DNA of 64,000 bases from Loxodes magnus. Lineage: Eukaryota; Ciliophora; Karyorelictea; Loxodida; Loxodidae. The stretch covers positions 372,001-436,000 of the forward strand of contig CAMPDV010000228.1 of the NCBI GenBank assembly GCA_946699065.1, given 5' to 3'. The stretch's first letter is position 1. Each line of letters opens with the position of its first letter. The notes beneath the pieces are model-generated. The model saw nothing but the letters and a program-made list of their open reading frames with translations. It had not been told where the DNA came from and did not search any database. Below are positions 1 to 64,000 of the stretch, in pieces. The position numbers and the translations under genes are program-made.

Positions 1-3000
1 CAGATGAAGGATCTTTTATATTCGCTTAAAATGGTATATTTTAATTAGACAACATATCAATTCATGAAAATTAGACATCTAAAACAGGAATTATTAATCT
101 TTGGAATTCAAATGGTGAATGCTAAATTACAAAATCATCTATATATAAAAATAAAGGGAAAGCTTCTATTTATGTGTACTAGAGTCTCTTAAGCATTAGC
201 CAAATATCATTTGCCAGCAATTCTGCAGATGACTTAACACCTGGAATTTTCATTCATAAATCTAAAGTTTATATAAGTGATTCTATTTTTAATGATCATG
301 AATCAAAGAAAGGAGGGTTTATATATAGTGAATATTAATCTAAAGTATAAATTTTAAATTATAAGTTTCGAAATGAAAAAGGAAAGAAAGGAGGAGCTTT
401 ATACGTGTTTCAATCAGAAGCTGTAATAAGTAATGCCAGTTTCAGTAATATAATAGTAAATTTAAATGATGGTACTATTTATGCTTAGTAATCCAACTTA
501 AGTATCTAAAATTCTATTTTTAACAATATAATATCTTAATAATAAGGAGGCTCAGTTGTTTTTATGATATAGTCAAATATGACAATGGAATAATGTACTT
601 TGACTAACTATTATAGTACAGCAATAGCTATTTAATAAAATAGTGCATTAACTTTAACTCTTACAACATTTAGAAATGGACAAAGCAAAAATTTTCCTGG
701 TTCAGGTGTTTATTCATAAAACTCATAATTGGATATGTTTAACTGTACTTGTGATAATCAAATATCCTAAATAGGTTCTTGCTTTGCAATAGTAAATAAT
801 GAAGTATTTTATAAATATTTAATCTAATATAATCATTTTGAGAATGTTACAGCTTTATAATAAGGAGGTGTAGGATACTGCTATAATGCTAATATCACCT
901 TTTTATATAATAACTTTGTAAGCAATAAAATTGAAAGAGGAGAGTAATCTACTCTAAAAGGAGGAGCTTTAAGATTGATATGTGATAATAAATAAATTTG
1001 TGACTATAGAATAGAAAGGAATTTCTTTATTAATAACTCTATTTAAAGTACCAATAGTGAAGGAGGAGCTATTTCATTTTAAGGAACTATACCTACTTTC
1101 ATTCCTGATATAGAAAGTTAAGAAATTTGCCTCTATTTCAAAAATAATTAAGCTTTCTATGGAAATAATTTTGCTTCATTTGCATATACTCTTAGTAATA
1201 CTAATACGATAGATGCATTAGATCATTGTGCAAACACCAAAATATAAAGATAACTAGTTTCATAGTTACCTGGTTTTCCTATAACTGAGCATTTATTTTA
1301 TATAATAGATATTTAAGGTTAGCTAGTTAGAACTGATAAATCCTCTTAAGCATCTATTTATTCCAATAACAGTGATTCAGAGCTATCAGGAAAAACTAGA
1401 GTATAAGCTGAACTTGGTGTGTTTGATTTTTAGAATATAATAATAAAGGCAGAACCAAAAACTAATATTAACTTATATATAGAAACCAATGCCATTGATA
1501 TTGATGCTTTACCTTTTAACTTAAAGTTTATCAATAAACTTAATATGGAAGTATACATTTAGAAATGCTTATAAGGATAAATACTTATAGAGGGTAATTC
1601 ATGCTATAATTGTCTTTACGGATAATATTCCTTTAACTAAAGCGATCTGAAATGCAAAGAGTGTATTGCTGGTTCGACATGTTATGGAAGTGATTTGATT
1701 GGGCCTAAAAAAGGATTTTGAAGAAAAAGTTTTGAAACAGATAATATTCATGAATGTCCTAATAGCAAAGCATGTAAAGGAACTACTGTAAATGATAGTT
1801 TTGTGGATATTTATTTATAAACCACTGATTAGTAAAATAGAGAAGATCTCAAGAAAGGAATTAATTGAAAAGGAGAATGTACTGAAGGTTATAAAGGTGT
1901 TATGTGTGACATTTGCGAGAAAGATTGAACAAAAAATGATATAAATGAGTGCCAAAAATGTTTAAGTAAAAGATGATCTATCATACTTGGTACTTTTACT
2001 ATAACAATATTCATCATTTTCGTTATATACTTAGTTGTTCAAACTCTTAAATCAGCAGAAAAGTAAGAGTCTTACTATGGGGTCCATTTAAAAGTACTAA
2101 CTAACTATTTCTAATTTTCTTCTTTAATTTAGAAGTTTTAGTTCAATTGATCAAATGTTCTTAAAAGCTACTTTGAAGCAAATTAAAGAATAACGGCATA
2201 GACTTCTAATATATTGAAAATAGATTGTTTATTTTAAGAAGGAGAAGAGTTTTATTATAGCAAAGTATTGAGCATTTTGATGTTACCTTTAATAATTTTA
2301 GTAATATCCCTTGTATTAGTGAGTGTATACTCTTGCATAAAATATAAAAAGTTTAATAATTCTATCTTTATAACTATAATGAGTGTTTCCTACTTCCAAA
2401 TTTGTACTAATTTAACCTCTACTATTTTTAGTGTTTTTAGTTGCTATAAGATAGAAGATGACTATTACGTTCTAAACTCTTATACTGATATATAATGTTG
2501 AAAGGGAAGGCATATAAAGTTTATCTTAATATTTGGTTTACCTTCACTACTTCTGTATGCGTTTTTTGTTCCTTTTAACGTTTTTATTTACTTATATAGG
2601 AAGAGAAAAATAATAAAATCCTACTAAATAAAGTCTTAGTTTGGGTTTCTAACAATAGGGTACAAAGAGAATTTCTACTACTGAGAAATATTCAAAATTT
2701 ACTAGAAATTTTAAATTTCCTTTATTTTTATTTTTCTATAGAAGAATACTATAATTTTCTAGTTCTGATGCTTAATTCTTGTACTGCTGGTGTTTATTTA
2801 TCTGTAGAGGTAAAATAATGCTTATATAAAAGAAGAGCTTAATAAACTAGAAGCTATTTACTTATATGTATCAGCATTTACACTATATATAGGTATCTAT
2901 TTTGATTCTGGATAAAGATACTTAATTATTGATATCGCTTCTTTTATACTACTAGTTGCTGCTAATGTATACTTCATTCTTGTCTGGATATACTACTTTA

Positions 3001-3893
3001 TACTTCTCTTTGGAAGTCAATACTATAGAAAATATCTCAAAACATGCTTTTGCTTTATTTGCTTTTAATAAAAGTTAGATTTAATGGAAACTATTAATTA
3101 ATGGGAAAAGTAAGAAGGAAATTATCTTAGAGACTAATAGAGTAAATGAAGGATATGCTAAAATAAGATTTCCTCAATATTAAGAAGAAAAAGGATAAAG
3201 ATCTTCAATGATAAAGAAGAAGTTTAATTTTATAACCTAAACTAAGAAAATAAGCATACCAAAAAACTAACCCTTCATTTTAAGTAGAAAGAAGATATAA
3301 CTATCTTAAAATAAATGGACTTATCATATTTAATCAGCATTGGCTTATATGAACTCTATAACTAAAACTCTAGAAAATTCATATTAACGCAAACAGAATA
3401 TTGAAATTAAAGAATTAAGTGATTCTTATAAATATGAAGCTAAATTTAAAATAATCCAAGTAATACTATTACTAATTAAAATAGTCATCAAGAAGAAATT
3501 AAAACCTAAAACTATTCAAATCAGACATAATAATCCTATTAATCAAATAATAGTTCATTTGGTTAATAAATATAGTCTTAGATTTAGTTAGAATCAAAAT
3601 TATATAGTCATGAAAAATTCAAAAAGGCAAGGAAAATAAATCAAAAATAAGTAAGTTTAAGTAACTGTAAATTTAATAAAGTTTTTATAAAAAAGACAGC
3701 TGATTTAAAGACAATTGTGGAGATTCTTGAAGAAACTTAATAGTAAAATGAAGTGTAGAATTCTTAGCAAGCTGATTTAACATTAGAATAATCTTAATGC
3801 GAAATCTAAGTTTAAGATGAAAAGAAATGCGAAGAAAGAATAGCTAGTAATAAAAGTATAGATGTAGCAGAGTAGTGAAAGAAATTTTGTTGA
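1..3893 (+). CDS. Multi-pass surface receptor-like protein with beta-helix-type ectodomain (5' partial)
   Basis: One uninterrupted frame (codons start at position 3) of about 1,296 residues is open to the left edge, so the start lies outside. The first ~520 residues form Gly-Gly-rich repeats (GGFIYS, GGALYV, GGALRL, GGAISF), typical of parallel beta-helix (pectin-lyase-like) ectodomains. Next comes a Cys-rich segment (CLYGQYSF, CKECIAG, GFWRKS, GYKGVMCDIC), the GCC2/GCC3-EGF type found in large ciliate surface proteins. Several hydrophobic segments follow (about 1978-2040, 2275-2345, 2515-2600, 2700-2815, 2870-3060), then a Gln/Lys/Asn-rich cytoplasmic tail. GFWRKS, GINWKGEC and FYYWEI need TGA as Trp. 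Two TGA codons sit at the end (3876 and 3891); I took the last. Probably a plasma-membrane protein; its ligand is unknown. A related 5' fragment lies at 58800. Confidence 0.82.
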
Positions 3894-3964
3894 ATAACAT
3901 ACTCTTATTAAAATAATTTAATAATCTTAATTTTTTATCTTATAAATAAAATAATAAATAAATT

Positions 3965-6146: not shown

Positions 6147-7904
6147 TCACTTCTCTTATAATAATGATGTAGGTTAATGATTTATATCTGCATGTTGATT
6201 TCACTTTAATAATATATGCTCTAACTAACTTATAAAAATATCTATGTTTGGCCTTATATTCTCGTCGAAAGCTAAACATCTGTAGAATAGATCAACTAAT
6301 AAAGGTTCTTGTTATATTTCGCTTGAAAACCTAGGTATCATTTTATCGATATAAATTATTTACTTTAACTAAGAATCTAGAACTGGATAAAGAAGTTCTT
6401 CGTTGAATATTTCTACTCCTATACAACCTAAAAATCAGATATCACTTTTTTTGCTCACTTTTTTCTCAAATTATACAGGAGCCATTCATTGATGTTCACC
6501 TTTCTATTCTATTGTTCTTAATCAGTCATGTTTATTAAATAATCCAAGAGTTAGTATTTTAGGAGAATCTTAATCATCTAACAGAATATTAAGAGATTTG
6601 ATTTCTTTATGAATTAAGTTTCTAGCGTGAATAGCCTTCAAACCTTCTGCTATTTAACTTAGTAAGTTCAGTTTCTTATAATATCTAGAATGACAGTTTT
6701 TGAATAGTTACTTTGTCTAAATAATTTAGAATAAACTTCCTTTATTCTAAAAATCAGTTAAAAGAGCGAGTTCTTAAGTATCGATAGCAAATCCTATAAG
6801 TTTTTAAACTCTTAAGCTATTTATTAGCAGTAGTTCTTTACATTCATATCAGAACTAATCTATTATTTTATCGTTCTATTAGTTAAATACTTTAAATCCA
6901 TACATGAATCCTTAGATACATAATAGATAAGTAGTTCCGAAATAATCACAAGCCAATTTTTGCAATTCCCCTAAAAAATTCATTGTTAGAAACCAAATCT
7001 CTATATTTCCATATTCTTACTTCACAACTACTATCTATTTGCCATAGGAACTTCCTTATTTCTTCTTCTGTTATTTTATTATTTACTTAGTTTACTTCAC
7101 TTTTAATTTTTGTTTAGGGAATTTCTAATTCAGGATTTAGTTGTTTTGCTTTACTGAAGCATTCTAGTGCTTCTTATTCCTTGTTTAAAGCTTAAAGACA
7201 AAGTCCTTTATCATAGAAAGCTTTTGAGTACTTAGGATCTAGTTAGATAACTTAGTTGAAGCATTAGATAGCTTCAAAATGATTTCCTAATTTAAAAAGA
7301 GAAAAACCTTTGAGTTTGAAATGATCTGGTAGAGTGGGATTAAGTTTGATGGCTTAATTAAGACTTTCAATGGCTTCATTGTATTTTTCTAGCTTAATAA
7401 ATATCGCTCCTTTATTAAAGTGAGCATCTACTAATCTAGGATCTAGCTTCGTAGCTACATTTAAACTCTATATCGCCTCGGCGTTCTTTCCTAATTATCC
7501 CAGCAAAGTTCCTTTGTTATAGTGAGCTGCCACTAAATTAGCATCTAATTAGAGAGCTATATCATAGTTATATGGCGTCGTTACATTTTCCTATTTGTTT
7601 TAGTAATGATCCTTTGTTCAAATAAGCAGATACCATTTTAGATTAGTTTGATAGCTACATTGTAGCTCTATATCGCTTCATCGTATTTTTCTAGCATCTT
7701 CAGGGCAACTCCTTTATTACAATGAGCAACCGCATCATTAGAATTTAAATTAAGAGCTAAATCATAACTCTAGATTGCTTCATCGTATTTCCCTAGTGTT
7801 TTCAATGCAACTCCTTTATAAGTATGAGCAGCAGCATATTTGGGATCTAGCATGATAACTATATTAAATTACTCGATAGCCTTATGATAATTAGCTTCCT
7901 TCAT
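6147..7904 (-). pseudogene. TPR protein with C-terminal kinase-like domain, frame-disrupted
   Basis: The minus strand encodes at least seven tetratricopeptide repeats (KYDEAIQSYDLAL, AHCNKGVALKMLEKYDEAI, ALNKEQEALECF), then a protein-kinase-like domain. Kinase landmarks can be aligned but are degraded: IHKEIKSLNIL stands where IHRDLKPxNIL is expected, LTLGLF replaces the DFG segment, and QWMAP and KSDIW match the activation-segment and helix-F motifs with TGA as Trp. Three shifts relative to a single frame are needed (near 7640, 7585 and 6960), so the copy is probably broken; sequencing error cannot be excluded. The ATG at 7904 is the first in frame, but the TPR sequence YNRIGLKF continues upstream, so the start may be further out. 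The stop is TGA at 6149-6147. If expressed it would be a TPR scaffold with a catalytically dead kinase fold. Confidence 0.68.
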
Positions 7905-7949
7905 AAATTTTAATCCTATTCTGTTATATTAAGTAGCTTGAGATATTTA

Positions 7950-8630
7950 TATAATGATAACTAATAATAAATATTAATTTAAGTTTAGTAGTTGCTAATA
8001 TAATGCTTATATTAGTTTTTTATTCTAAGTAATTAATACCTTTATTCTACTTTTTATTTATTTACTTTACTCTTTAGCTTCTTTATTTGTACTTATAGAC
8101 CTTTAATAGTTTTTATTAATGTATTATTGCTTTTAATGTATAATTAGTATTATTTATAATAGAAGTAATAAAGAGTTTACTGTTGCTAGTAGATAGTTAC
8201 TAATAATCAAATATTTGCTTATTTATACAATTATAACTATTAGCTATTTAGTATATTTATGTAACTATTTTATTGTTTCTTTAATTATTATTTATTTATT
8301 TATTCTTTTTTACCATTTACCCTGCTTTTTAAGTTAGTTCCTTTAATTTTTGACTAATATTAATAATTTTATAGTTATAACTTTAGTTTACTTATCAATC
8401 AAATATTTTTCCTATTTATTTGTTTTTAAGAGACTTTAGTAATTTCATTTATTATAAAAGTAGCCTTCCTTATAAACTTTTTGACTTTAATAATGCTTCA
8501 TTATTCTCTTTCCTGCTAATATACAATAAAATATAGTAGCTTATTATTTAATATAGATATTTCATCTGATAAACCAAACTTAAATTACTTAATCTTTAAA
8601 TTACTATCTACTAAGTAACTATCCTATTGA
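7950..8630. other. AT-rich spacer
   Basis: Mostly T-rich plus strand with short TTTATT-type repeats. I see no RNA gene, no recognisable protein motif and no match to the repeat families described elsewhere in this window. Confidence 0.4.
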
Positions 8631-25707: not shown

Positions 25708-27072
25708 ATGTCTTAGGTTGTTCAATGCCACTCTTGTAATGGAGATTTCGATGGATAGATGAAAATCCCGATGATCCTTCCATGTAAGCACAATATTTGT
25801 TTCATTTGTGCATCTGATTATTTATAGAAAAACAATTGCATCAAATGTTTCGACTAATCTTGCTAATTGATCCATAAAACACATAATTTAAATTTATAGA
25901 AAGATGAATAATTACTTAAACGTTTAGAGCAAAAGGGGACACTAAGTAGTATTACTTTATTTGAAGGTTATTAGACTAAAATCCGTTCAGCATATGCATT
26001 ACTGTTTAAGTAGCAAGGAAATTTGATTTTTTAGCTAATAAATAATCTCAACCAATATGTTTTCAAGAATAGTTCGGCTAAATAGAGAGAGTTAAATTAA
26101 TTTGCTAAATAGTTAACTTAATAGTTAGGCTATCTCAAGTATTAGTAGGTATAGATAAGTAAATAGGATCTTGCTTAATAAGACACCTAAGAAAGTAGTA
26201 TTGATCCAAGAGTGGAGTAATTGGTATAAAAGTTAGCTAAGGAAGCTTAAGAAATCTTTTAATAGATTTCCTAGATATCGGTTAATGTGTTTGAGGAGAG
26301 GGATAGAATGAGAGTTTAAATGGATACGTTAAGTCAGGTTAACGGTAGTTATCTTACTTAGATTTAGTAGTTGAGGTAGCAAGTATCGAGTATTTAATAA
26401 GAGAGAACATAAATAATAAATGAGTTGGTTTTAGCAAAGGATGCTTTGAGAGAGCTTAACTAGGCTAGTGTTGATAATGACAGAAAGATTGTGTAGATGG
26501 GATAGTAGTTATAGGATCTATAGAGGGAGAAGATGAGTGTTGAGAAATAGATTTAGGATATGTTGAATGAGAAATAGGTACTTGCGACATAATTGGAGAA
26601 GTGTTAGTATCCTTAATAATAATTATCTGAGGTTAAATAGTAGAATATGGTAAAGCCAGTTACTCCTTAAGAGGTATAAAAAGTTAAGCCATAGTAACAA
26701 AAGAAGTAGTAAGCTTCCTAATCTTAATCGACAAAGGTCACAAATAAATAAATCTAAATATCGATAGTATCTCCGAATAATAAATCTGTGAAGCTTACAG
26801 TTAAATAAGATACCTCTATCGAATAACTAAAGAAAATGATATAAGATAAAACTAGTTTATTGTGATGGTCATTGAACATCTTTAAGAATAACAATAAGTT
26901 AAAGAACAAATAGATGATATAATCTTATAATATAATGGATGGGGAAAAGCTCTAAATGGATTGGAGTGAGTTAAATTTTGAAAATAATAATATATAGATG
27001 GTAAATTATAATAATCTTATTAAAGGAGGTACGTTACATTTCTAAACTTTATCTTTAATATAGGCAAGCTGA
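25708..27072 (+). CDS. RING-finger, coiled-coil, ubiquitin-like domain protein (454 aa)
   Basis: ATG at 25708 and TGA at 27070 share one frame. The N-terminus has a RING-type pattern: CHSC, LPCKHNICFIC, CIKC. The middle ~300 residues are Gln/Glu/Leu-rich coiled coil (QIQQLRQQVSSIQQERTQI, LQREKMSVEKQIQDML), with Gln mostly written TAA or TAG. The C-terminus resembles a ubiquitin fold: ISIVSPNNKSVKLTVKQDTS, IEQLKKMIQDK, IMDGEKLQMDWSEL and KGGTLHF match successive strands and the helix of ubiquitin-like domains. It is probably a ubiquitin-pathway scaffold or E3. The coding strand is C-poor at 26281-26640. The stop TGA lies inside the first unit of the intron-like array; if that unit were spliced out the frame would continue past 27412. 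Confidence 0.85.
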
Positions 27073-27412
27073 GGATTTAATATTCTTAACATATAGCAGG
27101 TAAGTAAGCATTTAATATTATTAATACTATAGAATGTAAGTAAACATTTAATATTCTTAAAACTATAGCAAGTAAGTAAACATTTAATATTCTTAAAACT
27201 ATAGATGGTAAGTTAAACATTTAATATTCTTAACCATATAGCATGTAAGTAAGCATTTAATATGCTTAAAACTGTAGCAAGTAAGTAAGCATTTAATATT
27301 CTTAAAACTATAGCATGTAAGTAAACATTTAATATTCTTAAAACTATAGGCTGTAAGTAAACATTTAATATTCTTAACTACATAGTTCGTAAGCATTTAC
27401 TAATAATTTTAG
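27064..27412 (+). repeat. Array of intron-like 33-nt units separated by variable triplets
   Basis: Nine near-identical units begin GTAAGT (the first GCAAGC) and end TAG. Eight are 33 nt and one is 34. Each is followed by exactly three nucleotides that differ: CAG, AAT, CAA, ATG, CAT, CAA, CAT, GCT, TTC. Units starting at 27136, 27172 and 27317 are identical to each other, yet their flanking triplets differ. A tenth, shorter GT...AG segment (27389-27412) contains TACTAAT, a branch-point-like string. The units fit minimal spliceosomal introns with single-codon exons; a 36-bp minisatellite or a 12-residue protein repeat are the alternatives. Confidence 0.85.
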
Positions 27413-27419
27413 GGAGTAA

Positions 27420-28140
27420 TTTAAAATTTGACATATGTTTTAAAGTTTGTAATAGTTATTTATTTACATTATTAGAATATGGTATTTTAGCATTAATCAT
27501 TGTTCTAGAATGTAATTGGAATTAATTAATTTAGTATGTAAGGGGTCTTTATAGGATATTTTATTTATAGATGGTAATTATTTTATGATTATTTTTAGTT
27601 GGTAACATATATTGTTATTATGATAGAATGTGAGTTAGAATGTAAAAATTAATAAGGGGGTAAGTTGAATATTAATGGAAACCAAGGTTGTAAGAATAAA
27701 TTTCATTACTGTAGTGATTGATGAATCTGATTCCTGAGTCTGAGAGTGGAATACTTATATACTTAATTTTAACTCTTATTAATTAAAATTATAAAATTAA
27801 TAATAATGATATTTATATATTTATATGTCTATATTTATGTATTTTATTATATAGAATTGTGTAGATGCTGATAAATAATACTGTAATTATTACTTTAATA
27901 AATTGAGCAGTATAGAAGTTTGGATATGTGTGATAGATACATTTTATCTTTTCTCTGCGTTTTGTTATTCTATTTCTTAATCTTATTATTTTTAATCTTG
28001 ACTGTTTGGATTTCCAATCTCTACCCTTTCATTTTATAATCATTTAATTTTAATGGTTTAAAAGATAAATTATCCGTTTTAATATCATTACCATAAATTG
28101 AGTTACAATCCAATATATTTAATAAACTTAACTTAAAAAA
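27420..28140. other. Region downstream of the intron-like array
   Basis: In the frame that would follow removal of all array units, the sequence from 27413 is open for about 100 codons to a double TGA at 27719-27724, ending in a Cys/Asn-rich stretch (ECELECKN, GCKNKFHYCSD). Whether this is coding is unknown. The remainder to 28140 is AT-rich with nothing recognised. Confidence 0.35.
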
Positions 28141-28146
28141 TAAAAA

Positions 28147-28970
28147 ATGTCGATTTCAGGAAGGAATTTCTTGCAGCTCCAAAGAAGTAGGGTCCAGGAA
28201 CCTATTAGCAATAAGTAGAGGCCAAAAGCAACAATAAACAACTCATGTTTTTAGCACCAATCTCAAAGGGAGAAACCAATGAAATATGCGAAGTCCGTCC
28301 TACGATAGGAGATATCGGATTTTAATCTTTCCGGACAAATGAGTATGGAACAGTTCATCAAAGTAGTACTAAACCTCCAAGAAGAAGTTAAGAAGCTCAG
28401 CAGGGAAAATTCTAATGAGCTCTAAGGTACGTTGGACTTAAGAATGGACAATTAGGAGAGAGAAGTCGACATCTTATGAAAATACTAACAAGAGTAGTTG
28501 CGCCAGAAAAACTCTCAGCTATAGAAAATTCTAGAATTAAGCAAACAGATAGAAAACCAGCAACAGAACCAGAAACAGGAAAGTTAAAATCAAGAAATCT
28601 CTGGAAATAAAAAAAGGAAAAGAGTAAGTTGGAATAAATTAATCTCAAATGGAAAAATAAAGCAACACCTATCAAAGACAAAAATAAAAAATAAGAATAA
28701 GGAAAAAATGGTTTTTTTGCAAAAATTAATGGCATCTATGCAAGAATTGTTTAAAATTTTGGAGCTTTAAAAAAATATTGGCTTTAGGAGAAAAAAGAGA
28801 GAGAAAAGCTCTACTGTAATTCTGAAGGAGATATATACAAGAGAAAAGGAAGTCGAGAACTACTGAGACTGATTTTAACAAGAACTGTAGGCAAAAGAAG
28901 AAAGAATTAAACCAAGCGGATTGGAAGCAGAGCTTAAAATCTTATTTTATGTAGCGAATATGAGCTGGTA
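28147..28970 (+). mobile_element. ORF1-like zinc-knuckle retroelement, copy H
   Basis: ATG at 28147 (MSISGRNFLQLQRS) starts a Gln/Arg-rich N-terminus; a change of frame then gives a strong coiled coil (VVLNLQEEVKKLSRENSNEL, LRQKNSQLQKILELSKQ). In a further frame the knuckle appears as WFFCKNQWHLCKNC, with the first Cys replaced by Trp. Frame changes and the lost Cys mark this as a dead copy. Base composition is less AT-rich than the flanks. The 3' end is not sharply defined. Confidence 0.65.
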
Positions 28971-37667: not shown

Positions 37668-38085
37668 ATTATTATAGAGTGCGTAGCACCTCATTGACGC
37701 ACAGCTCTTTCAATATTAATATTTAATATTAAAAAAATGTTCTCATGCTTCTTGTTAAATTCTAGAGGTCCGATGAGTCATGTCAGCTTTTCCAAATGGG
37801 GAATCTTCTTATTAAAAATTATTCTTAAATCTTGAGTCAAATGCTTCAGTCTTCTTGAATAAGGTCCAAATAAGAGATAGTTATTAAGTCGGTAATAAGA
37901 AGGCCCGTCAGTCAAACTTTCATACTACTAGAGAGAACCCTCGGGGTAAGTTAGGTACGTCTCAACAGAGCTTATCCACCCTTTCCCGTGGTGGCATCTA
38001 TTGTGAGATTACTGGAAATGCAGTAAACACTGCACCAGATTACCTACTAGTTTGGCTGACGCGGCCAACATCCATTTTATATATA
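37668..38085 (-). mobile_element. SINE-A copy 2 (left arm of large inverted repeat)
   Basis: A ~415-bp repeat on the minus strand, running from GGATGTTGGCCGCGTCAGCC near 38080 to the terminal hairpin and CTATAAT tail near 37672. It is almost identical to the plus-strand copy at 38461-38880, differing at only a few positions that I could see by eye. No conserved open frame. Confidence 0.9.
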
Positions 38086-38460
38086 ATAATGGCATAAAAA
38101 CTTATAATTAAAGAGATAATCTTTAAATTAATAAAAAAATAAACATAATTTGAAGTATAATTTGAAATAGGATGCTTAGATAATTAAAAGATGTAGAAAC
38201 TTGGACTACTTAACTGTTTTTAATACTTTGAAATATCTGGTAAAAAGTGGTTGGAGATTAAAGACATTAATTATACTTTAACTTGGTATTAACTCAGCAA
38301 GAAAAAAAGATATTTTAGAATTTAAAATATAAAGAGAAACGTGAATGTTCCACCAAATCTCCTAATTTAGATCTTTAGGATTAAGAAGTCTTAAACAATT
38401 AATAAAAATTATTTTAGTTGAGAAAATAGCAAAGAAAAGCAGTTGAGGGTTTTATTACAT

Positions 38461-38880
38461 ATATTATAAAATGGATGTTGGCCGCGTCAGCCAAACTAGT
38501 AGGTAATCTGGTGCAGTGTTTACTGCATTTCCAGTAATCTCACAATAGATGCCACCACGGGAAAGGGTGGATAAGCTCTGTTGAGACGTACCTAACTTAC
38601 CCCGAGGGTTCTCTCTAGTAGTATGAAAGTTTGACTGACGGGCCTTCTTATTACCGACTTAATAACTATCTCTTATTTGGACCTTATTCAAGAAGACTGA
38701 AGCATTTGACTCAAGATTTAAGAATAATTTTTAATAAGAAGATTCCCCATTTGGAAAAGCTGACATGATTCATCGGACCTCTAGAATTTAACAAGAAGCA
38801 TGAGAACATTTTTTTAATATTAAATATTAATATTGAAAGAGCTGTGCGTCAATGAGGTGCTACGCGCTCTATAATAATTT
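38461..38880 (+). mobile_element. SINE-A copy 3 (right arm of large inverted repeat)
   Basis: Plus-strand copy of the same element, 375 bp away from copy 2 and inverted relative to it. It keeps the 5' hairpin TTGGC-CGCGTCA-GCCAA and the hairpin TGCAGT...ACTGCA; the TTGCGAG/CTCGCAA stem is eroded here. It ends with the tail that abuts a TPR pseudogene at 38890. Confidence 0.9.
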
Positions 38881-45200: not shown

Positions 45201-45840
45201 ATAATATGGCTAATTTCCTTCATTACTAATCTCTTCTTTTTATTTTGCATTTATAATTTTATTAAATTAATAAAATTCCTAACTTCAGAAACTCTGGATC
45301 TTAAATTATTTTTATCTCAAAGTTAAAAGACTAGTAAGATCTAACTTTATTAGAATAAAATTATATTTCTTTAATAATAATTTTCTTTCAATTTATCAAT
45401 ATCTATACATAAAGATTAGGCAATTTAATTTAAAGCTAAAATGTAGAAACAGTTTATTAATCCTTATTTCTTATTTAGATTTGCTTTTTTACTTTTTTTA
45501 AATATTTTCTTATTCTTAAATTTTAAGAGAAAACAACAAAAATTTAAATTTTAGCAAAAGCAGACAAATATATTCTTAGTTTTAGCTATATAATTATTAT
45601 TAATGCTAAGTCCTAAATCAGAATTAGGTTTATTATATTATATTTTTAAGTTTAAAAATATTAAATATTTCTCTCTATGATTCAAATCTAATCAATATTA
45701 TTAAATTTGAGTATTTAATCATTAATAGTTTAACTTTGATGATTTAAAGGATTTTGCAAATTTGAAGTAAGTAAAGCTAATAATTAATTAATAAAACTTA
45801 TTTAAACTAAGTTTTAAAAAATCTATGAAAAAAAGCTTTA
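42280..45840 (-). other. Possible long AT-rich minus-strand gene
   Basis: From about 44800 down to 42560 one minus-strand frame is open and contains segments of gene-like composition: IEEIKAQQLLELKKSRQQ, LRTQDSTLPFVNQKQK, EWNNYRRYLADEAQQLKF, ILSFLDSHFKCETEQFQK. It could be a coiled-coil protein of several hundred residues. No start, TGA stop or family could be established, and the rest of the interval (44800-45840) is unassigned AT-rich sequence. Confidence 0.35.
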
Positions 45841-45848
45841 AAAAAAAG

Positions 45849-46640
45849 ATGGAGAGTTGGAACAAAGGTTTTCTTATCTAAAAGATTACTCGTAATACTA
45901 CTGATCAATCTTTCTAAAATTAACAAACACCAACTAAGATTTAAAAGAAAAAATATTGCTAAATATCAGAAGAAAAATAACTACCTGCAAAAATTCCTAA
46001 AAAGAGGCATGCATTTAATCAACTAATGAATTTAGACAAGGAATAACTCGTGGAGATTATTTTCGACTACACTGATAAAGTCGAGAATCTCGAGCATTAT
46101 GTTATCAGTTTATAACAAGATTTATAAGATCATGTGGACAATGAGAAGCCACACACTGAATTTGTTACAAAATAGGATATTAACAACAGATATCAAGAAA
46201 TAGAATGCGATATTGTTAGACTAGATGAATAAATGGGAATAGACTTTTAAAAATATGAAAATGCCTTTTAGCAAGTTAAAGAAATTAAGCAAAGGTTAGA
46301 GAAATTAGAGAGCTAATAGCCATAAAAAAATCAAGATTCAATGATAATAGAAGAACAACCCATGACTTAAGAAAAATACTTCAAAAAAAAGTGCTACATA
46401 TGTGGCAGTCAATATCATCTTTGAAGAAGATACTAGGGAAATAAGGAAATTAGAAAAAAGATTTGAAATGAATTGACCATGTTTTATCCTTCCTCAGATG
46501 GTTAATTATGACGTAAGAAGATAACTCCAAGACCGTTCGGAAAGCTCGGAAGTGAACTTGGATGGAGACAACGGGGAGTCCGAGACCCTGTAAAAGGTAA
46601 TACAGGGGGTTATGGATCTTTTAAGGGAACACTCCATTAA
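45849..46640 (+). CDS. ORF1-like zinc-knuckle protein, copy N
   Basis: ATG at 45849 (MESWNKGFLIQKITRNTTD) opens a single clean frame of about 260 codons: an acidic/coiled-coil centre (EQLVEIIFDYTDKVENLEHY; QVKEIKQRLEKLESQQ), a knuckle CYICGSQYHLWRRY with the last Cys changed to Tyr, then MFYPSSDGQLWRKK and an Arg/Gly-rich tail (RPFGKLGSELGWRQRGVRD). The match to the GFKKGF-type start and C-terminal motif places it in the family. No TGA follows for about 500 bp; TAA codons cluster at 46630, so termination is uncertain. Confidence 0.75.
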
Positions 46641-49600: not shown

Positions 49601-52440
49601 AATTAATAACAATATGCAAAAAGCTTTAATCTAAATATTCTATCTTTATATTAGTTTTTCTTATTAATTATTTACCATTAATGATAACTATTTTCTTAAA
49701 ATAGTAAACACTTAAAATAAGGTAATTTAATTTTACTAAAGTTATTTGCATTTTTGTAGGTTAGATATTATTGTATATAAAATAAATAGTTTAAAAAATA
49801 GCTAAAATCAAATTTACTAAAATAATACATCCTTATATTTTTATATCCTTTAATCTATCATAGAAAAATAAGGTTTGTGAGGACTAAAATTAATTTTTTC
49901 ATCTATTTTAAAAATTAGTTTACATTAATGTTTATATTTCGCTTCAATATTTTCTTTAATTATTAAGGAAATAAATTACATATATTATAAAAAAATTATA
50001 AACATTTAACTATATTTCAATTCAGTAAAAATTCATTCTTTAAAGAATTTATCTACTATCTCAAACCCTTTTTAAGCCATAAATTCTATTTAAATCTGTT
50101 ATTAAAAATCTCTTTCTTAATTTACTTATAGATAAAATTTTTTAGCCACAAACTTCAAATAACTTTCAAAACTTATCCTTTATTTGTTTAATGTAAGAGT
50201 CAATTAAGTTTCCTGTTTCTTTAGAATAAAAATCAATAACTAAGCAAATTAATTTAAATTTTAGAGATATCTATTCATTTTCTATTTAGGAAAGAAACTT
50301 GATTCTTTAAATTGATATAATAAAAAATAATGTAAAATTAGAAAAAAAACTTAAAAATAAAATGCAATTAATGGATTTTACAATTTTATAAGTCTCTATT
50401 ATCTTTTCTTCACTAGCCTCGGTCTTACTTAATTTAATTTTTATTCGTTTGTTATTTTTCTAAAAATATTTGAAAATAAATAATATTAATAGATAGAAGT
50501 TAAGTTAGCTAAAATAAAGTTTAATGTATTTAAAAAAATCTGATATTATAATTTAGAATAAATAGATTTTTTAGATGAAGCTTTAAATACACTTTTTTTT
50601 TCAATAATGCAATTTTTTATTGCTTTAACAACCATACAAATTCAATAGTTATTTTTGATAACCATTCTTAACTTTCTAATAGTAATTTAATTGAAATAGT
50701 TTTCAAACTTGGAAAGGATAAAAATTTATGTTTTCTTGGTTATGCAAGGATAAATTTCATTTTCAAATTTCTTAGTATTAAATTTTAGGTTGTGAACTAA
50801 ATATTTCAAATAAATTACCTGCATCTTGAAAATTTAACAAGATAATTAGGAAAGGAATCAATTTTTAAAATATTTACTTTAATATTCTGAAATAAATTAA
50901 ATTTAAATTGTTTTTTCTTTGGTGAATCTTTCATTTTTTAAATTTTTATTCATAACAAAAATTTAATAATAAAAGAGGTGAATAAATATTTCTATAAAAA
51001 GATTGAATAAACCAACATAGAAAAATTAAGAAGATAGTTGCAAGAGATTTAAAACATAAAGCTGATTTATATCTAAAAAATTTAAACAATGTACAAAATT
51101 TATTTGAAGAATAATTGAAAAAATCTAAAACTCGTTTAGTCATGAAATAAAAAATTTATTATATTTATCATTAAAATTCTATCCTATAAAACAAGAAATT
51201 AATAGCGAGCTTTAATCAAAGACATAAATTTTTAAGGATAAATGTTTTCGAACAAAAAACAGACTCAAAAGACAAGTAAGAAAACAATTTACTAATTATA
51301 TCACAGCAGCTGATTATATTTCTGATATATAATCTTATCTTCTCATTTTAATCTTGAGGAATAAAACATAAAAAAGAATAAGAAAACTCTATGCTTGAAA
51401 AAAAAATATAAAGACAGGAATTTAACTTAAGTCGAATAAAAGCATTAAATAACAAATAAAAATTAACTGATTTCTAGAAAATTAAGTTGGACAATAAAGT
51501 TTCCTTTTAATTTAAATTTACTAGAAAAGATCTTACAAGAACAAAATATTTCCGAGATAAAGTAATAAATAGTAAATCTATTAATATCATTTAAAGTGAA
51601 AGAGAAAAATTTATGTAAATTTCAAATTGGAATTTATGAATACAACATTGAGGAGTAGAAATAAAAATTTTAATTTATTATATTCATAAAAGCAGTACGA
51701 AATGTATTTTACAGATTTGTACGATTTATTTAAGAGTTTTTTCATAAATTGAGCTATAATCTTAATTCAGTTCAATGAAGTAATTTATTTGCAAGAAAAT
51801 ATATTTTAATTTAGTTTTCTATCTTTAGAGCTTTTATTTATATTTACAGTTTTTTTAATTGAAATAATAATTATTTAGAGAAAAACTTTTAGATGGATTC
51901 ATAATTAAAATATGGAACTTTAAAATTTGTTTAATTTATTTTACTTATAAAATAGAAAATTTTAATAATTATAAAAATTATTAATAACTTTAAAGTTTAA
52001 TATATATAATTATGGAATTAATTTTTAAAATTACCTAAAAAAATGAATAATTAAAAAATAATTATAACTATTCAATATTAATTGCAAATTAAATAATTAA
52101 ATAATTAAATCTCGAAATTATATTTTATATCTAAATATAAATTATTTTATATTTATAAAATATATTCATTAGTAAATTATAAACTTAAAATATAAATTAT
52201 TTAAAAATCACATAATCATTTATTTTTGTAATTGGATAAGCGATATTCCTTAATAATAATAGATGATTAAGAATAAAATATTGTTTCAATAACAAATTAA
52301 TTATATTTTTTATTTTTAACCATTAAATACAATAAAAAGTGATTTATAATTAAAAGATCTAAAACAAATTATGAAGATAAAGCAGTTTTGTATATAAACA
52401 ATAAATTATATTTCGTATTTTACTATTTTTTTAGTTTTAA
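46650..52440 (+). other. Long AT-rich region with possible plus-strand coding
   Basis: Between about 47770 and 51640 plus-strand frames give stretches that look coding (ANYFTWDSPKFQFSFDSIF near 47900; NFRDSSAQTEGYLFYEGN near 49210; VNKYFYKKIEQTNIEKLRRQ near 50980). These lie in more than one frame, and near 48400-49600 two frames look equally good. If this is one gene it exceeds 1,000 residues and is broken or contains undetected introns. Nothing was recognised at 46650-47700 or 51700-52440. Confidence 0.3.
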
Positions 52441-52464
52441 TATTTCTAGTTTTTTTTTTTTTAA

Positions 52465-53454
52465 ATGATAGAAGGGTTCAAGAAAGGCTTTTATACCACC
52501 TCCTAAAAAGGGGAGAGAAAATAAGAACCCTCATCTCTAACTAACACGTCTTCTTCCTAGAAATAATCTTCTTCTCAAAACCTTCAAGAATAATAGACTC
52601 AACTAGGAACTTCCAGGCCAACCTAAAAGATGGGACAAAAGCGCCAAAAAGCTACCTCGATGACACCAACTGAAGAGGAAGGACCTAGAAAGGTGCTGGA
52701 GACGCAAGAAGCAGCAGCCGTGCGAGAGTTTGCGATGCCACAGTTCCAGGAAGAACAGGCATAAATTTTAGTCGCATTCTCTGACCTGAAGGAGGAAGTA
52801 AAGAAGCTACGATTAGAGAATAGAGCTCTAAAAAATCAAGTTACTGAGCTCAAGGAATGGAAAGAAAGCTTCTGGGAAGTCTACGATCGAGAGCAAAACA
52901 CTTTCTTGAGGGAAATGGGATTGCTGCAGCAGAGAACAACTGTGCTTGAAGAGAACAGCAAGTAGCAACAGTAGTAGGAATTCAAAGTTAAGACAATTCA
53001 AGATCCAATGGACATAGAAGGAGCTATTAATTTACCGAGGAGTCCAGACAAGAAATGAATTAGGAATAAACCAAGATGTTTTGTATGCAAACAAACTGGA
53101 CATAAATATAGACAATGCTAGAAATTGAAATTAATTAAATAATAGTACTGGAATAGAAAATAATAAGAAAAATAATAGTACTAATATTAGGATAAGATTA
53201 GACGAGAATTCTGTAACTAATTTTATCCGTCAGGAGGTCAAATCTACAAACCGTAGTGGTATTCAATCTAAGGCGACTGAAGAAAGAGTCCTGAAGGGAG
53301 CTGGTTCCAGCCAGGCTATCAAACTGGTCCTGTGAACACGAGATTGAAAGTCCTCCAAGTTCACTAAACTCCAATTTAAACTTTTTAATTTTAATATTTC
53401 TAGTTTTTATAACTTTATTTTAGATTTATTCATATCTTATTACTATTATAGTGA
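52465..53454 (+). CDS. Intact ORF1-like zinc-knuckle protein (329 aa), copy M
   Basis: ATG at 52465 and TGA at 53452 bound one uninterrupted frame. Order: GFKKGF start; a Ser/Gln/Thr-rich segment; a basic MGQKRQKATSM; a strong coiled coil (DLKEEVKKLRLENRALKNQ, VYDREQNTFLREMGLLQQ); a perfect knuckle CFVCKQTGHKYRQC; then FYPSGGQIYKPQWY and a Gly/Pro/Gln-rich tail. A TAA at 53365 matches the end of copy N and may be the true C-terminus. GC content is visibly higher than the surroundings. It is the best candidate for an active ORF1-type protein in the window; RNA binding is inferred from the knuckle. Confidence 0.82.
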
Positions 53455-60636: not shown

Positions 60637-61775
60637 GAAGATCTTTACGAGCAATCATAGATGTCCTTTTTTAAGTGCAAAGGGAGATGTTAGAATACGA
60701 ATTGCAGTTTATGAAATTTAAACATTGCCTATGACAAAAAGCGTTGAGATTAAGAGGCTAATTAATAGGAAATAAAGGAAAAACAAAAGACTCATTGTTC
60801 GATTTTTGTAAAGAAGAGAACTTTATTTTTGAACAATACTGCACAACAATAAAATTAGAATTAAAAATTAAAGACAAAAATATATTTATAGATGATGGTA
60901 ATAATAATCAAAAAGGGAAGTAAAAAACATTAATCGTGCAATTTGAGAACATAGAGTATACGTAGAAGATAGAGAAAGAATGGAGTAAATGATAACAACT
61001 CTACAGTATAGAAAAACATGATTTGATGAATATGTAGTAGGACCACCACACTACCTGAGATACAATAAAAATAGAAAAGAAGAAATATGCTACATATTTA
61101 GAATAAGAACGAGATGTAATGGGAGCCAGGATTGTTTAAAAGAAAGACACCTAGTTGCGACAAGCAAATGCCCTTTCTGTAATGATGTAAGAGAAAACGA
61201 AAGGTATATCATAGAAAAATGCTCAGAATACAAAGAAAGTAGATAAATATGTATTAGAAAGTTAAGAACAATAGGAGTAGAGAGACAAGGAATGGAACTA
61301 TTTGATATAATATAAGATACGGCCAAATTCGAGAAATTCATTAGAAGCTAAGAAGAGTAAAAGAGAGCTAAAGCTAACTTGATAATAAAAGATTATATCA
61401 AAGATATATTAGAGAACAGGAAAAAAGTATATATAGAAAAGAAAATTGAATGAAAAAAAGAAATAGGAAAAGACTGCAGAGCAGGGAAAGGATAATTTTT
61501 ATGAGTGTATAAAAGCTTGATCAAGAAGAAAAGAATTAGAAATGAAAATTAGTAAGGTATGTAAGAAAAAATAAATTAAGCTTGCAATAAAGATCTAATA
61601 AAGTGTAGATAGATAGAAGACGGAAGAACAAGAGATAATGTAGAGGAAAACGAGGAAGATATGCAACTAATAATAGAAGAATTTCTATAAACTGAAGGCT
61701 TACTTGAAGAAACAGACATATTTTGAGATATGTAAAGAGCTGCGTACAACGCGGGGCTACGTTCTCTATAATCTT
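60637..61775 (+). mobile_element. LINE-1-type fragment: ORF2 C-terminus with SINE-related 3' tail
   Basis: One plus-strand frame of about 360 codons ends at TGA 61724. It holds WFDEYVVGPPHYLRYNK, FRIRTRCNGSQ and a zinc motif CPFCNDVRENERYIIEKC, the C-terminal Cys/His-type element (C-x2-C ... C) typical of non-LTR ORF2. A highly charged tail follows. Three codons after the stop begins the terminal hairpin AGAGCTGCGTA...TACGTTCTCT with CTATAAT, the tail shared by the SINE-A copies and the element at 3965. The 5' part is missing (truncated against the LINE-2 3' end). The clean frame suggests a young insertion. Confidence 0.78.
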
Positions 61776-61779
61776 ATTT

Positions 61780-62360
61780 ATTATTTTAAAAAAATTAATT
61801 TTTAAAAGACTACATTAATTTAATTATAGATATTTCATGCTTATTATTATTTTTTTTATGAGCTAAATAAATATAATTTTAGTTTGTCCACCATTTTATT
61901 ATTTTTTTAAGTCATTTTTTTAAAAATCTTATATATATATTTTTTAATAATTTTTTCGTGGAATACTTGTTTAAATTTTTTTTAGATTAATTAATTTGTA
62001 ATTTTTTTATTAGTTATAAATTGTTCATTCTTCAAAATCACTAGTATATTATTTTTAACCATCGTACTAAAATGTTTAGTGTATAGTCATTATGATATAA
62101 TTTTTTTATATTATATAATTACATTTTTTCTAAGCTAAAAATTTGCAGAAAATTCATTTTGTTCTAGTTTGAATTTTTAATTTGTTATTTTTAGGTTTTA
62201 TTTATATATACTTGTTTAATTTTCTTTCCTTTAAAAATTTTTTAATATTTCGTTAATTTAATTTTTTTTATGTTAAATCTTTTTTTTAAATATTAAAAAT
62301 ATTTTATCAATTTTTATTTCAATATAATTAGTTTCTATATACTAAATTCTTTTTTAATTT
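61780..62360. other. T-rich spacer upstream of the RING/WD40 gene
   Basis: Strongly T-rich plus strand with no gene or repeat recognised. It presumably holds the promoter of the gene starting at 62367, but no specific element stands out. Confidence 0.4.
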
Positions 62361-62366
62361 TTATAA

Positions 62367-64000
62367 ATGGATAACAATCAATGTCCAAACTGTAAAGAGC
62401 AATTTGATTAAGACAAGCGAGTGTCTAAGCAATTACCATGTGGCTGCATTTCATGTTTAAATTGTCTTAAAACAGTTTTTTAGTTTTCAAAAAAAATCGA
62501 ATGTGCATAACACAACTAAGTTTACTACATACAGCCTGAATAATTATAAGGATATGTAGTTTAACTGCCAGTTCAGTAACAAATACCAAAAAATTAATAG
62601 TTTTATTCTGCTGAATAAGTAAAGCTTCAAGAATAATACAAATGGTTACAGGGATTTTAGATTCAAAAATAAAATTAACATAATAAGATAAAAGAAGTTG
62701 TATAAAACAGTTCATAATTCATGTATACTATTTAAGCATTATCGTCGCATTAGATACTAAAGATTTTAACTGATTAGATCTCTGGTACTAATAGTAAGAT
62801 AAAAAATTTACTATAGCGTTTGTCTAAGCTACAAGTAGCAAGTTAATTTTAATAATAGTAAATGGGTTAATTTTAATAAATGCAAGAATAAAATAGTTAA
62901 TAAGAATTTAATTTAATATAGCGTGAGATAGATGAGTTAAAAAGATGTTAAAGTTAACAAATGAATACCCAAAACTTAAGAAATATTATCTAGTAATGTA
63001 TGTTCAAGGTATTCAGTTATTTAAGTTAGAAGTCCAATGGTTAGTAATTGACTCTGAATGAGGCTTAATAATTAATTCAAAATTATTTCAGGCAAGTAAA
63101 CGCAATAAACGAATTGTGTCAAGTATCAAGCATTGAAGTATAGCCATAAGTTTAATTATAAACTTAAAATCAAGAGTAATAAATTATGAGCAAGTATGTA
63201 ATCTAGGATTTCTCAAATCTAAAATTTGAAAATTTAAATTAGTTGTTGAACCAGATAAAAGATGAGAATCTCAATATATAAACTTTGAAGCACAGTCCGT
63301 TAAATAAACTTGGATTGGTTAACTAAGCTTTAATCTTATTATAATTACCATAAATAGCTGACTAATAAATGAATGGCAAGTTGAATTAGATAATCTAGTT
63401 ATGTAAGGCATAATAAGGAGTAGCACAAATTGCTTCCAATGCCTTAACAATTTTGAACTTCATGAACTTCGCGTTCACCAATCAAAACTTTTCAAGCATC
63501 GACCTATCTAACTCTGATCTCTCGGACACCACATTCACCAATTGTAACTTCTCCAACTCTAATCTAACATAATCTAACCTCCGTAACACTAAATTCATTA
63601 ACTGTGACTTCTCCAACGCTAATCTAACCACAATATCTACGGAACACCCTCACATACTCACTGGCCACTCAGACTCAGTCACTTCAGTTGCCATCTCCTC
63701 AGACGCTAATTTAATCCTTTCTGGATCTGATGACAAAACTCTTAGACTCTACAACATAGCTGAAGGTACCTGTAAGACCATGAGTGGTCACACTAGTTGT
63801 GTATATGCTGTGGCTATATCCAGTGATTCAGAGTTCATCGTATCGGGAAGTTATGATTATACGGTGAGACTATGGGACGTCAAGACAGGTACCTGTAAGA
63901 CCATGAGTGGTCACACTAGTCATGTATGATCTGTGGCTATATCCAGTGATTCAGAGTTCATCGTATCGGGAAGTTGAGATACTACTCTTAGACTTTACAA
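62367..64000 (+). CDS. RING-like, coiled-coil, pentapeptide-repeat and WD40 protein (3' partial)
   Basis: ATG at 62367 opens a frame that stays open to the right edge (545 codons). The N-terminus has a RING-like Cys pattern (CPNCKEQF, LPCGCISCLNC) with a degenerate last pair (IECAQHN). A long Gln/Asn-rich helical region follows (NSQQEFNLIQREIDELKRC), with most Gln written TAA/TAG. Around 63460-63620 lie pentapeptide repeats (FSSIDLSNSDLSDTTFTNC, FSNSNLTQSNL). From 63650 WD40 blades begin (ILTGHSDSVTSVAISSD, GSDDKTLRLYNI). Two 41-residue blades are almost identical at the DNA level (123-bp period from 63765). TGA codes Trp in HVWSVAI and GSWDTTL. Probably a scaffold or ubiquitin-ligase-like protein with stacked repeat domains. 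Confidence 0.9.

Follow-up and report, generated by a model that had tools for sequence, protein, structure and literature searches.

Can the three nucleotides (nt) that separate consecutive intron-like repeats each serve as an exon of one codon? The question arises in a 64,000-nt stretch of the karyorelictean ciliate Loxodes magnus (assembly GCA_946699065.1, contig CAMPDV010000228.1, forward-strand positions 372,001 to 436,000; hereafter the window, in whose own coordinates positions are given), where a gene with a RING finger and a ubiquitin-like domain runs into a tandem array of units beginning GTAAGT and ending TAG. An earlier note on this DNA had proposed that the gene carries, at its 3′ end, one-codon exons set between minimal spliceosomal introns, namely the units at 27064..27412. 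Comparison of the window with paralogs in the same genome strongly supports that reading: the 3′ end is very probably a chain of ultrashort spliceosomal introns with one-codon exons (3 nt, rarely 6), which would be joined in phase 1 to make a C-terminal tail.

Results

Change is concentrated in the triplets between near-constant units

The array (27064-27385) comprises nine units, eight of 33 nt and one of 34, all ending TAG. The first begins GCAAGC and the other eight GTAAGT, just as previously described, and a 24-nt unit follows at 27389-27412. Exactly 3 nt lie between units throughout the array, as claimed; the unit at 27064 is a poorer case than was claimed, being GC..AG and abutting the preceding AG with no triplet. 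Three units are identical and have different flanking triplets. Across the eight GTAAGT units, mean heterozygosity is 0.70 in the triplet columns versus 0.09 in the units, within which columns 26-28 are also variable. When copies were paired by a 4-unit higher-order repeat, a comparison that leaves out one inserted base, they differed at 9/12 triplet sites and 7/132 unit sites (Fisher, 3.8e-8), bearing out the reported concentration of change in the triplets.

The TAG-N3-GTR count in the array was reached by none of 3000 dinucleotide shuffles, and the pattern continues beyond it. In the flank at 27386-27641 this motif occurs 6 times against a shuffle mean of 0.29, and 0/3000 dinucleotide shuffles reach 6; at 27386-27660 there are seven junctions with a spacer of 3 nt, one with a spacer of 6 and none for the remaining spacers from 0 to 12. 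Of the seven flank units, four are weakly similar to array units (p 0.03 to 0.05) and three are dissimilar. The whole chain contains 23 GT/GC..AG intervals of 23-35 nt between 26966 and 27714, separated by exons of 3 nt, with one of 6 and one of 0. The limits originally drawn around the array are therefore too narrow, and candidate introns continue on both sides of it.

Several simpler accounts of the array were tried and rejected. Chance was set aside on the shuffles, the heterozygosity and the higher-order-repeat comparison. A plain minisatellite fails as a full account: the array is indeed a tandem series of similar units, but variation sits in the triplets and is not spread across the unit, and the spacer rule holds across paralogs. 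An RNA structure was rejected since the array is less folded than its shuffles (z 1.90), as was a repeat protein read straight through, because the 34-nt unit shifts the frame and unit lengths vary among paralogs. The array unit found no match in viral and prokaryote collections, from which the organism's own genome is possibly absent.

A paralog family shares the layout

A two-unit query gave 259 genome matches which, among the matches listed, fall on 31 contigs. When the 3′ part served as query and 40 of its 99 candidates were scored, 40 places emerged, mostly loci already known. The layout seen in the window is common to 38 further family loci read (labelled L with a number), and four additional ones are decayed copies. 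Apart from the window, 30 loci were tested, and every one matches the RING/ubiquitin-like protein, though in L031 and L044 the match is confined to the RING part. The window copy and L040 are intact along the long exon, with 75% amino-acid identity and a ratio of nonsynonymous to synonymous substitution rates (dN/dS) of 0.47 over 420 codons. Array size ranges from 3 units (L061) to 40 (L031), and the longest unbroken runs of one-codon exons number 42 (L031) and 47 (L087, by our own count). A GT(RAG) donor and a (T/C/A)AG acceptor are conserved across paralogs, with a GC or AT donor in a minority of units.

Five loci were fetched once the hypothesis had been formed. One of them, L084, shows 12 junctions with a spacer of 3 nt, whereas any other spacer up to 7 occurs 0 to 2 times; translated by hand, the L084 tail reads LYVEWGLMNESWQRL followed by the stop. 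L081, L082, L083 and L085 are mutually 98-99% identical; the stretch printed has two spacer-3 junctions and one spacer-2 junction, and the long exon matches only a ubiquitin-like domain fragment, in L082 and L083. Junctions and gene body seem to have decayed together, since these copies have lost most of both.

Two further observations concern how the family is arranged. L032 and L034 contain three-unit higher-order repeats (CAA or AAA, GAA, TAT) in up to five copies, which suggests recent growth in three-codon blocks. L004-L010, L014, L015 and L046 include close copies that share a contig and are separated by ~29 to 87 kb, an arrangement that suggests large segmental duplications.

Spacers keep 3 nt while units change length

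For quantitative comparison, 171 distinct inter-core segments from 39 sequences at 38 places (L047 and L080 are the same) were aligned to a unit plus three free positions. The aligner gave spacers of 3 nt in 165 junctions, 0 in four, 1 in one and 2 in one; after hand inspection of the six exceptions the spacer is 3 in 167/171 and 0 in 4/171. Counted over segments, with related copies counted separately, 141 indel events of 24 kinds lie in units, three in spacers (deletions of exactly 3 nt) and three span both. Unit lengths modulo 3 are distributed 54/101/74 among 229 distinct units. By these lengths and indels, the interval from donor to acceptor is free of coding constraint in its length.

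Segmentation with no exon-length preference, applied to 21 of the 39 sequences, returned 447 intervals between introns, 325 of them 3 nt long. The others include 17 of 0 nt (16 at one place), four of 6 nt and 22 more of at most 12 nt, making 368 intervals up to that length; 79 are longer, many of them mis-segmented. For the window, unconstrained segmentation found 21 introns; 17 of the intervals between them measure 3 nt, and intervals of 56 and 19 nt also appear. Chains of at least three introns with a spacer of 1, 2, 4, 5, 6, 8 or 9 nt were absent from 152,220 bases (window and loci, both strands), and the 19 spacer-7 chains all lie within the same arrays, where GTAAGTAA contains a second GTAA.

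Exons of 6 nt occur at homologous places, as AATATG in the window (placed by hand), AAATTG and AATATG in L048 and L050, and AAAAAG in L031 (by eye). Because of them, the 3-nt rule looks like frame keeping and not merely fixed spacing. Intervals of 3 nt, rarely 6, also lie within the size of microexons (up to ~30 nt between two introns).

Genetic code and reading frame

Long frames in the window read TAA and TAG as Gln. Two TGA codons fall at what we take to be Trp positions of a WD40 repeat, and the homolog of a beta-helix gene, the one match of a search with part of that gene and used just for this test, has Trp aligned to a window TGA (YWR/FWR). The long exon of the RING/ubiquitin-like gene is open throughout with the TGA at 26863 as Trp, and the Pfam ubiquitin match spans this codon. 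On this evidence the code reads TAA/TAG as Gln and, except toward the 3′ end, TGA as Trp. In L. magnus, TGA is described as Trp, or as a stop near the poly(A) tail, with coding TGA depleted close to the stop (PMC11441545, in its available text). The TGA in the first array unit, earlier taken for the stop, gives no reason for the protein to end there, because TGA stops only near the poly(A) tail; it sits within 27029..27096, and the spliced reading places it inside an intron.

The 1258-nt length of the long exon places its end after codon position 1, that is, in phase 1. A search for the donor closing the ubiquitin-like exon found phase 1 in 14/20 loci tried; the other six were not located (L040 at a wrong place, five with no hit including the window, whose phase comes from length). 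A frame change was seen near the intron-1 site in L065. A TGA lies in frame within 12 codons of the start of the last exon in 18/20 distinct last exons for phase 1, 13/20 for phase 0 and 10/20 for phase 2. Phase 0 and the tail QNQMHQHAF, as first proposed, do not stand: since the donor at 26966 puts the exons in phase 1, the tail differs, and it is predicted to be NGAESNASTCFRIQYELYVEWGLIDESDS.

The last seven short exons joined to the last exon give a conserved LYxEWGL-like peptide in 37/39 sequences, with phase-1 tails such as LYVEWGLIDESDS, LYQEWGLIDC, LYREWGLINK, LYRKWGLII and LYRYWGMWK before the stop. Tail extraction required 3-nt exons, used a GGG-motif anchor and preferred AAT or ATT for one exon. 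With this preference removed, 35/38 sequences still have a single candidate (34 AAT, 1 ATT; L084 included), and the preference is decisive only for L040, L047 and L080 (two places). Synonymous spellings occur in the tails, Arg as C|GA, C|GT or C|GC and Gly-Leu as GGT-TTG or GGA-CTG. For phases 1, 0 and 2, the synonymous fraction computed over 19 distinct exon strings is 0.303, 0.095 and 0.146, and once the two anchor exons are removed it becomes 0.289, 0.098 and 0.124. Of the column shuffles, 1.4% reach the synonymous fraction seen in phase 1 and 5.2% reach the BLOSUM mean of that phase. Phases 0 and 2 were rejected on their worse synonymous fractions and TGA counts, though phase 2 does better in the BLOSUM shuffle. 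As in microexons, the frame is kept and the product conserved; the frame rule is strong and the coding statistics are modest.

A second subfamily and the genome-wide pattern

Published L. magnus introns average 19.3 nt with a mode of 17; 93% are at most 25 nt, and those of length 3n are depleted (PMC11441545, available text). L086 and L087, which have RING and ubiquitin-like matches, contain 72 and 70 introns, most of them 16-24 nt long, as is usual in this genome. Together with L088, a 2001-base sequence cut within the chain, they have 3 nt in 179/206 intervals, with a few longer ones between; when L086 and L087 are reverse-complemented or shuffled, no more than two intervals of 3 nt result. 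Compared by eye upstream of the array, L086 and L087 differ by five single-base indels, four intronic, one in a longer, unassigned stretch and none in triplets. L088 starts, also by eye, within a similar ubiquitin-like exon; Pfam found no match for its 61 residues, given in one frame.

Genome counts of GTAAG-N(6-16)-TAG-N(k)-GTAAG are 327 for k=2, 30,048 for k=3, 276 for k=4 and 183 for k=6; the same pattern read backwards gives 340, 1923, 148 and 176. Among the first 100 k=3 matches listed (C1-C31), 60 fall in four clusters (C4, C10, C15, C27) and 40 elsewhere, and these 40 are not far above the 32 k=4 matches on the same contigs. Because the listed density on long contigs predicts far fewer, satellites elsewhere may supply much of the 30,048, and an unseen satellite with 3-nt spacing may exist in the genome.

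Gene anatomy

The predicted features are collected in Table 1. Pfam matches to the ubiquitin and RING domains in the long exon are both under curated cut-offs, and a homolog search with the first part of this exon found no match. Single-sequence AlphaFold2 modelling of the ubiquitin-like region gave a mean predicted local distance difference test score (pLDDT) of 50.5 and was not used further. Boundaries in 27416-27511 and 27538-27570 were placed by hand using paralogs.

Table 1. Predicted features of the RING/ubiquitin-like gene and its 3′ chain (window coordinates)
Feature	Position	Strand	Remarks
First long exon: RING finger, coiled coil, ubiquitin-like domain	25708..26965	+	length 1258 nt
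Intron 1, GTGAGT..TATAG, 32 nt	26966..26997	+	
One-codon-sized exon ATG	26998..27000	+	
Intron 2, 25 nt	27001..27025	+	homologous interval differs in length among paralogs, e.g. 19 in L046
Exon GAG	27026..27028	+	most printed paralogs carry GAA, GAG or AAG
Two abutting intervals, 27029-27063 (GT..AG) and 27064-27096 (GC..AG)	27029..27096	+	single 68-nt intron or recursive site; AG|GT at the junction in many paralogs
Tandem section, 3-nt exons CAG AAT CAA ATG CAT CAA CAT GCT TTC	27097..27388	+	eight 33/34-nt introns between
Non-repetitive section, introns of 24, 30, 27, 27, 23, 33, 25, 25, 27, 27, 25 nt	27389..27714	+	
Exons of non-repetitive section: GGA TTT AATATG AAT TAT ATG TTG AAT GGG GTT	within 27389..27714	+	
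Last exon start	27715..27737	+	predicted phase-1 stop TGA 27735-27737
Region holding 3′ untranslated region	27738..27850	+	poly(A) site not located

Published 3′ untranslated regions of L. magnus have a median of 41 and a mean of 53 nt (PMC11441545, available text), lengths that would put the poly(A) site near 27780-27790. The main block of similarity to paralogs stops at ~27824-27853 in 10/10 loci compared; beyond it, similarity resumes in L046, and a second, short block appears in L041 and L047. The resemblance of L046 to the window runs from ~27879 onward.

Other features of the window

A gene at 3-3900 (+) encodes a cysteine-rich beta-helix protein with several in-frame TGA codons, among them the one aligned to Trp of the homolog. 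The tetratricopeptide repeat (TPR) gene at 6849-8444 (-) has two apparent frame shifts and is either a pseudogene or affected by assembly errors. Coiled-coil-like open reading frames lie at 52375-53058, 45711-46424 and 28148-28480, two of them with a CCHC-like motif; by eye, they resemble retroelement gag proteins. Identical end translations on both strands at 37777-38770 indicate an inverted repeat with ~300-bp arms (by eye). Finally, a single frame at 61542-64000 (+) combines a RING-like stretch (by eye), pentapeptide repeats and WD40 units, the last of which form a 123-bp tandem repeat with 89% matches.

Discussion

In the proposed scheme, the pre-mRNA would extend beyond 27737, its ultrashort introns would be removed serially by intron definition, and the one-codon exons would be joined in phase 1. 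Where AG abuts GC or GT (27063/27064), both intervals might leave as one or recursively. The resulting tail would be short and C-terminal, and its stop would be a TGA close to the poly(A) site. Mid-chain, growth may have come from tandem duplication of a unit of intron plus exon; as each duplication adds exactly one residue and leaves the frame unbroken, array length can drift. Splicing needs and homogenisation would keep the units constant, and the triplets would be nearly free in mid-chain and conserved toward the 3′ end.

Several observations weigh against this scheme. Most array units, at 32-34 nt, exceed the 25 nt that bounds 93% of L. magnus introns, some belong to the depleted 3n class, and 3-nt exons are mechanistically demanding to splice. 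L061 and L074 have no phase-1 TGA, and phase 0 finds one in 13/20 last exons; L006 and L061 could not be read through and were dropped from the tail set; five paralogs carry T|GA, meaning Trp or truncation, about a dozen codons upstream of the stop. The column-shuffle tests of coding are modest, with the phase-2 BLOSUM value reached in 3.1%, related paralogs and few codons. The gene body is frame-broken in several paralogs, with pieces in different frames. Unconstrained segmentation breaks the window chain twice, at the 56- and 19-nt intervals, where boundaries were placed by hand, and the genome is enriched at spacer 3 with no enrichment at 6.

Could the triplets never be exons at all? The gene would then end near 27070, or 26965 would join 27715, and the array would be a minisatellite within one large intron or an untranscribed 3′ flank. 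This account, which draws on a long frame readable to the TGA at 27070, a 36-bp tandem array and the abundance of tandem repeats in L. magnus genomes, leaves unexplained 167/171 spacers of 3 nt alongside 141 unit indels, the 3-nt spacing of flank units that resemble the array slightly or not at all, the phase-1 peptide and the second subfamily; we consider it unlikely. Harder still to credit is that TAG-N3-GTAAG is an unspliced DNA- or RNA-binding motif for which a spacing of exactly 3 nt is required, for example a recombination signal or a series of U1 sites. The likeness of GTAAGT to the U1-pairing site and the genome enrichment for spacer 3 and not 6 would suit it, but homologous 6-nt exons and a coding-like synonymous pattern would not, nor would the single phase in which chains continue from the ubiquitin-like exon, or the in-frame TGA that usually closes them.

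Two explanations rooted in mobile or eliminated DNA seem to us very improbable. Internal eliminated sequences, cut from DNA in place of introns cut from RNA, might be expected from a ciliate host, TA-rich ends and short units; such segments should, however, already be gone if the 705,730,643-base assembly in which the array sits is macronuclear, as suggested by its size, which matches that of the L. magnus macronuclear assembly (706 Mb). The suggestion of tandem introner-like insertions, in which a mobile element brings the introns, has scarcely any claim left: the units are repeated and have splice-site ends, but flanking triplets differ where target-site duplications would match, in the loci read the units stand in tandem in RING/ubiquitin-like paralogs, and the other introns of the chain differ in sequence. 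Tandem duplication of a unit of intron plus codon fits better, because the triplets differ and the units are tandem in paralogs.

We found no description of chains of one-codon exons, or of a layout like this, in the open-access literature; the separate elements, namely isolated microexons of 3 nt, tandem repeats that contain splice sites and introns gained through tandem duplication, are already known. The works cited here are compared as far as their available text goes. The L. magnus introns reported previously (PMC11441545) are likewise short and accompanied by an ambiguous TGA; that text mentions no chains, whereas here dozens of introns are consecutive with 3-nt exons, and most array units of the window family exceed 25 nt. 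The 3-nt microexons of Drosophila homothorax (PMC7392893) and RPS24 (PMC12686416) are also single-codon exons, single or few there, in contrast to unbroken runs of up to 42 or 47 here. Dual-specific splice sites in human polyubiquitin UBC (PMC10809524) similarly lie in a tandem repeat whose copy number is frame-safe, but the repeat here is mostly intron and its exon one codon. Intron gain by tandem genomic duplication (PMC4974935) offers a plausible route for mid-chain growth; that case concerns one potato gene, and arrays here reach 40 units. Introner elements (PMC9860276, PMC7789003) are alike as families of similar introns. Many introners have target duplications or inverted repeats, whereas the loci read here show neither target duplication nor a dispersed copy.

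If the chain is real, its intron density approaches the limit of one intron per codon, and the spliceosome must serially define 3-nt exons, in runs of up to 42-47 one-codon exons, across many paralogs and a second subfamily with different intron sequences. The U1 and U2 complexes need room around an exon, and exons of 3 nt are known as rare cases. Beyond the window, the family may represent a gene class whose C-terminal tails are written codon by codon. What is inherited as a unit would be one intron together with one codon; as arrays expand and contract, with skips frame-safe and splicing complete or stochastic, families of tails varying in length and sequence could arise on RING/ubiquitin-like proteins; such tail diversity is possible, and we hold this wider proposal tentatively, at somewhat under an even chance. 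If the chain is spliced as predicted, gene models of this genome may also miss coding sequence, because the usual aligners fail to place 3-nt exons. Should RNA confirm the chain, it would set a limit for exon size and intron density, offer a naturally occurring case of a minimal spliceosome that splices serially or recursively, and present a frame-safe repeat of intron plus codon that lengthens a protein by single residues.
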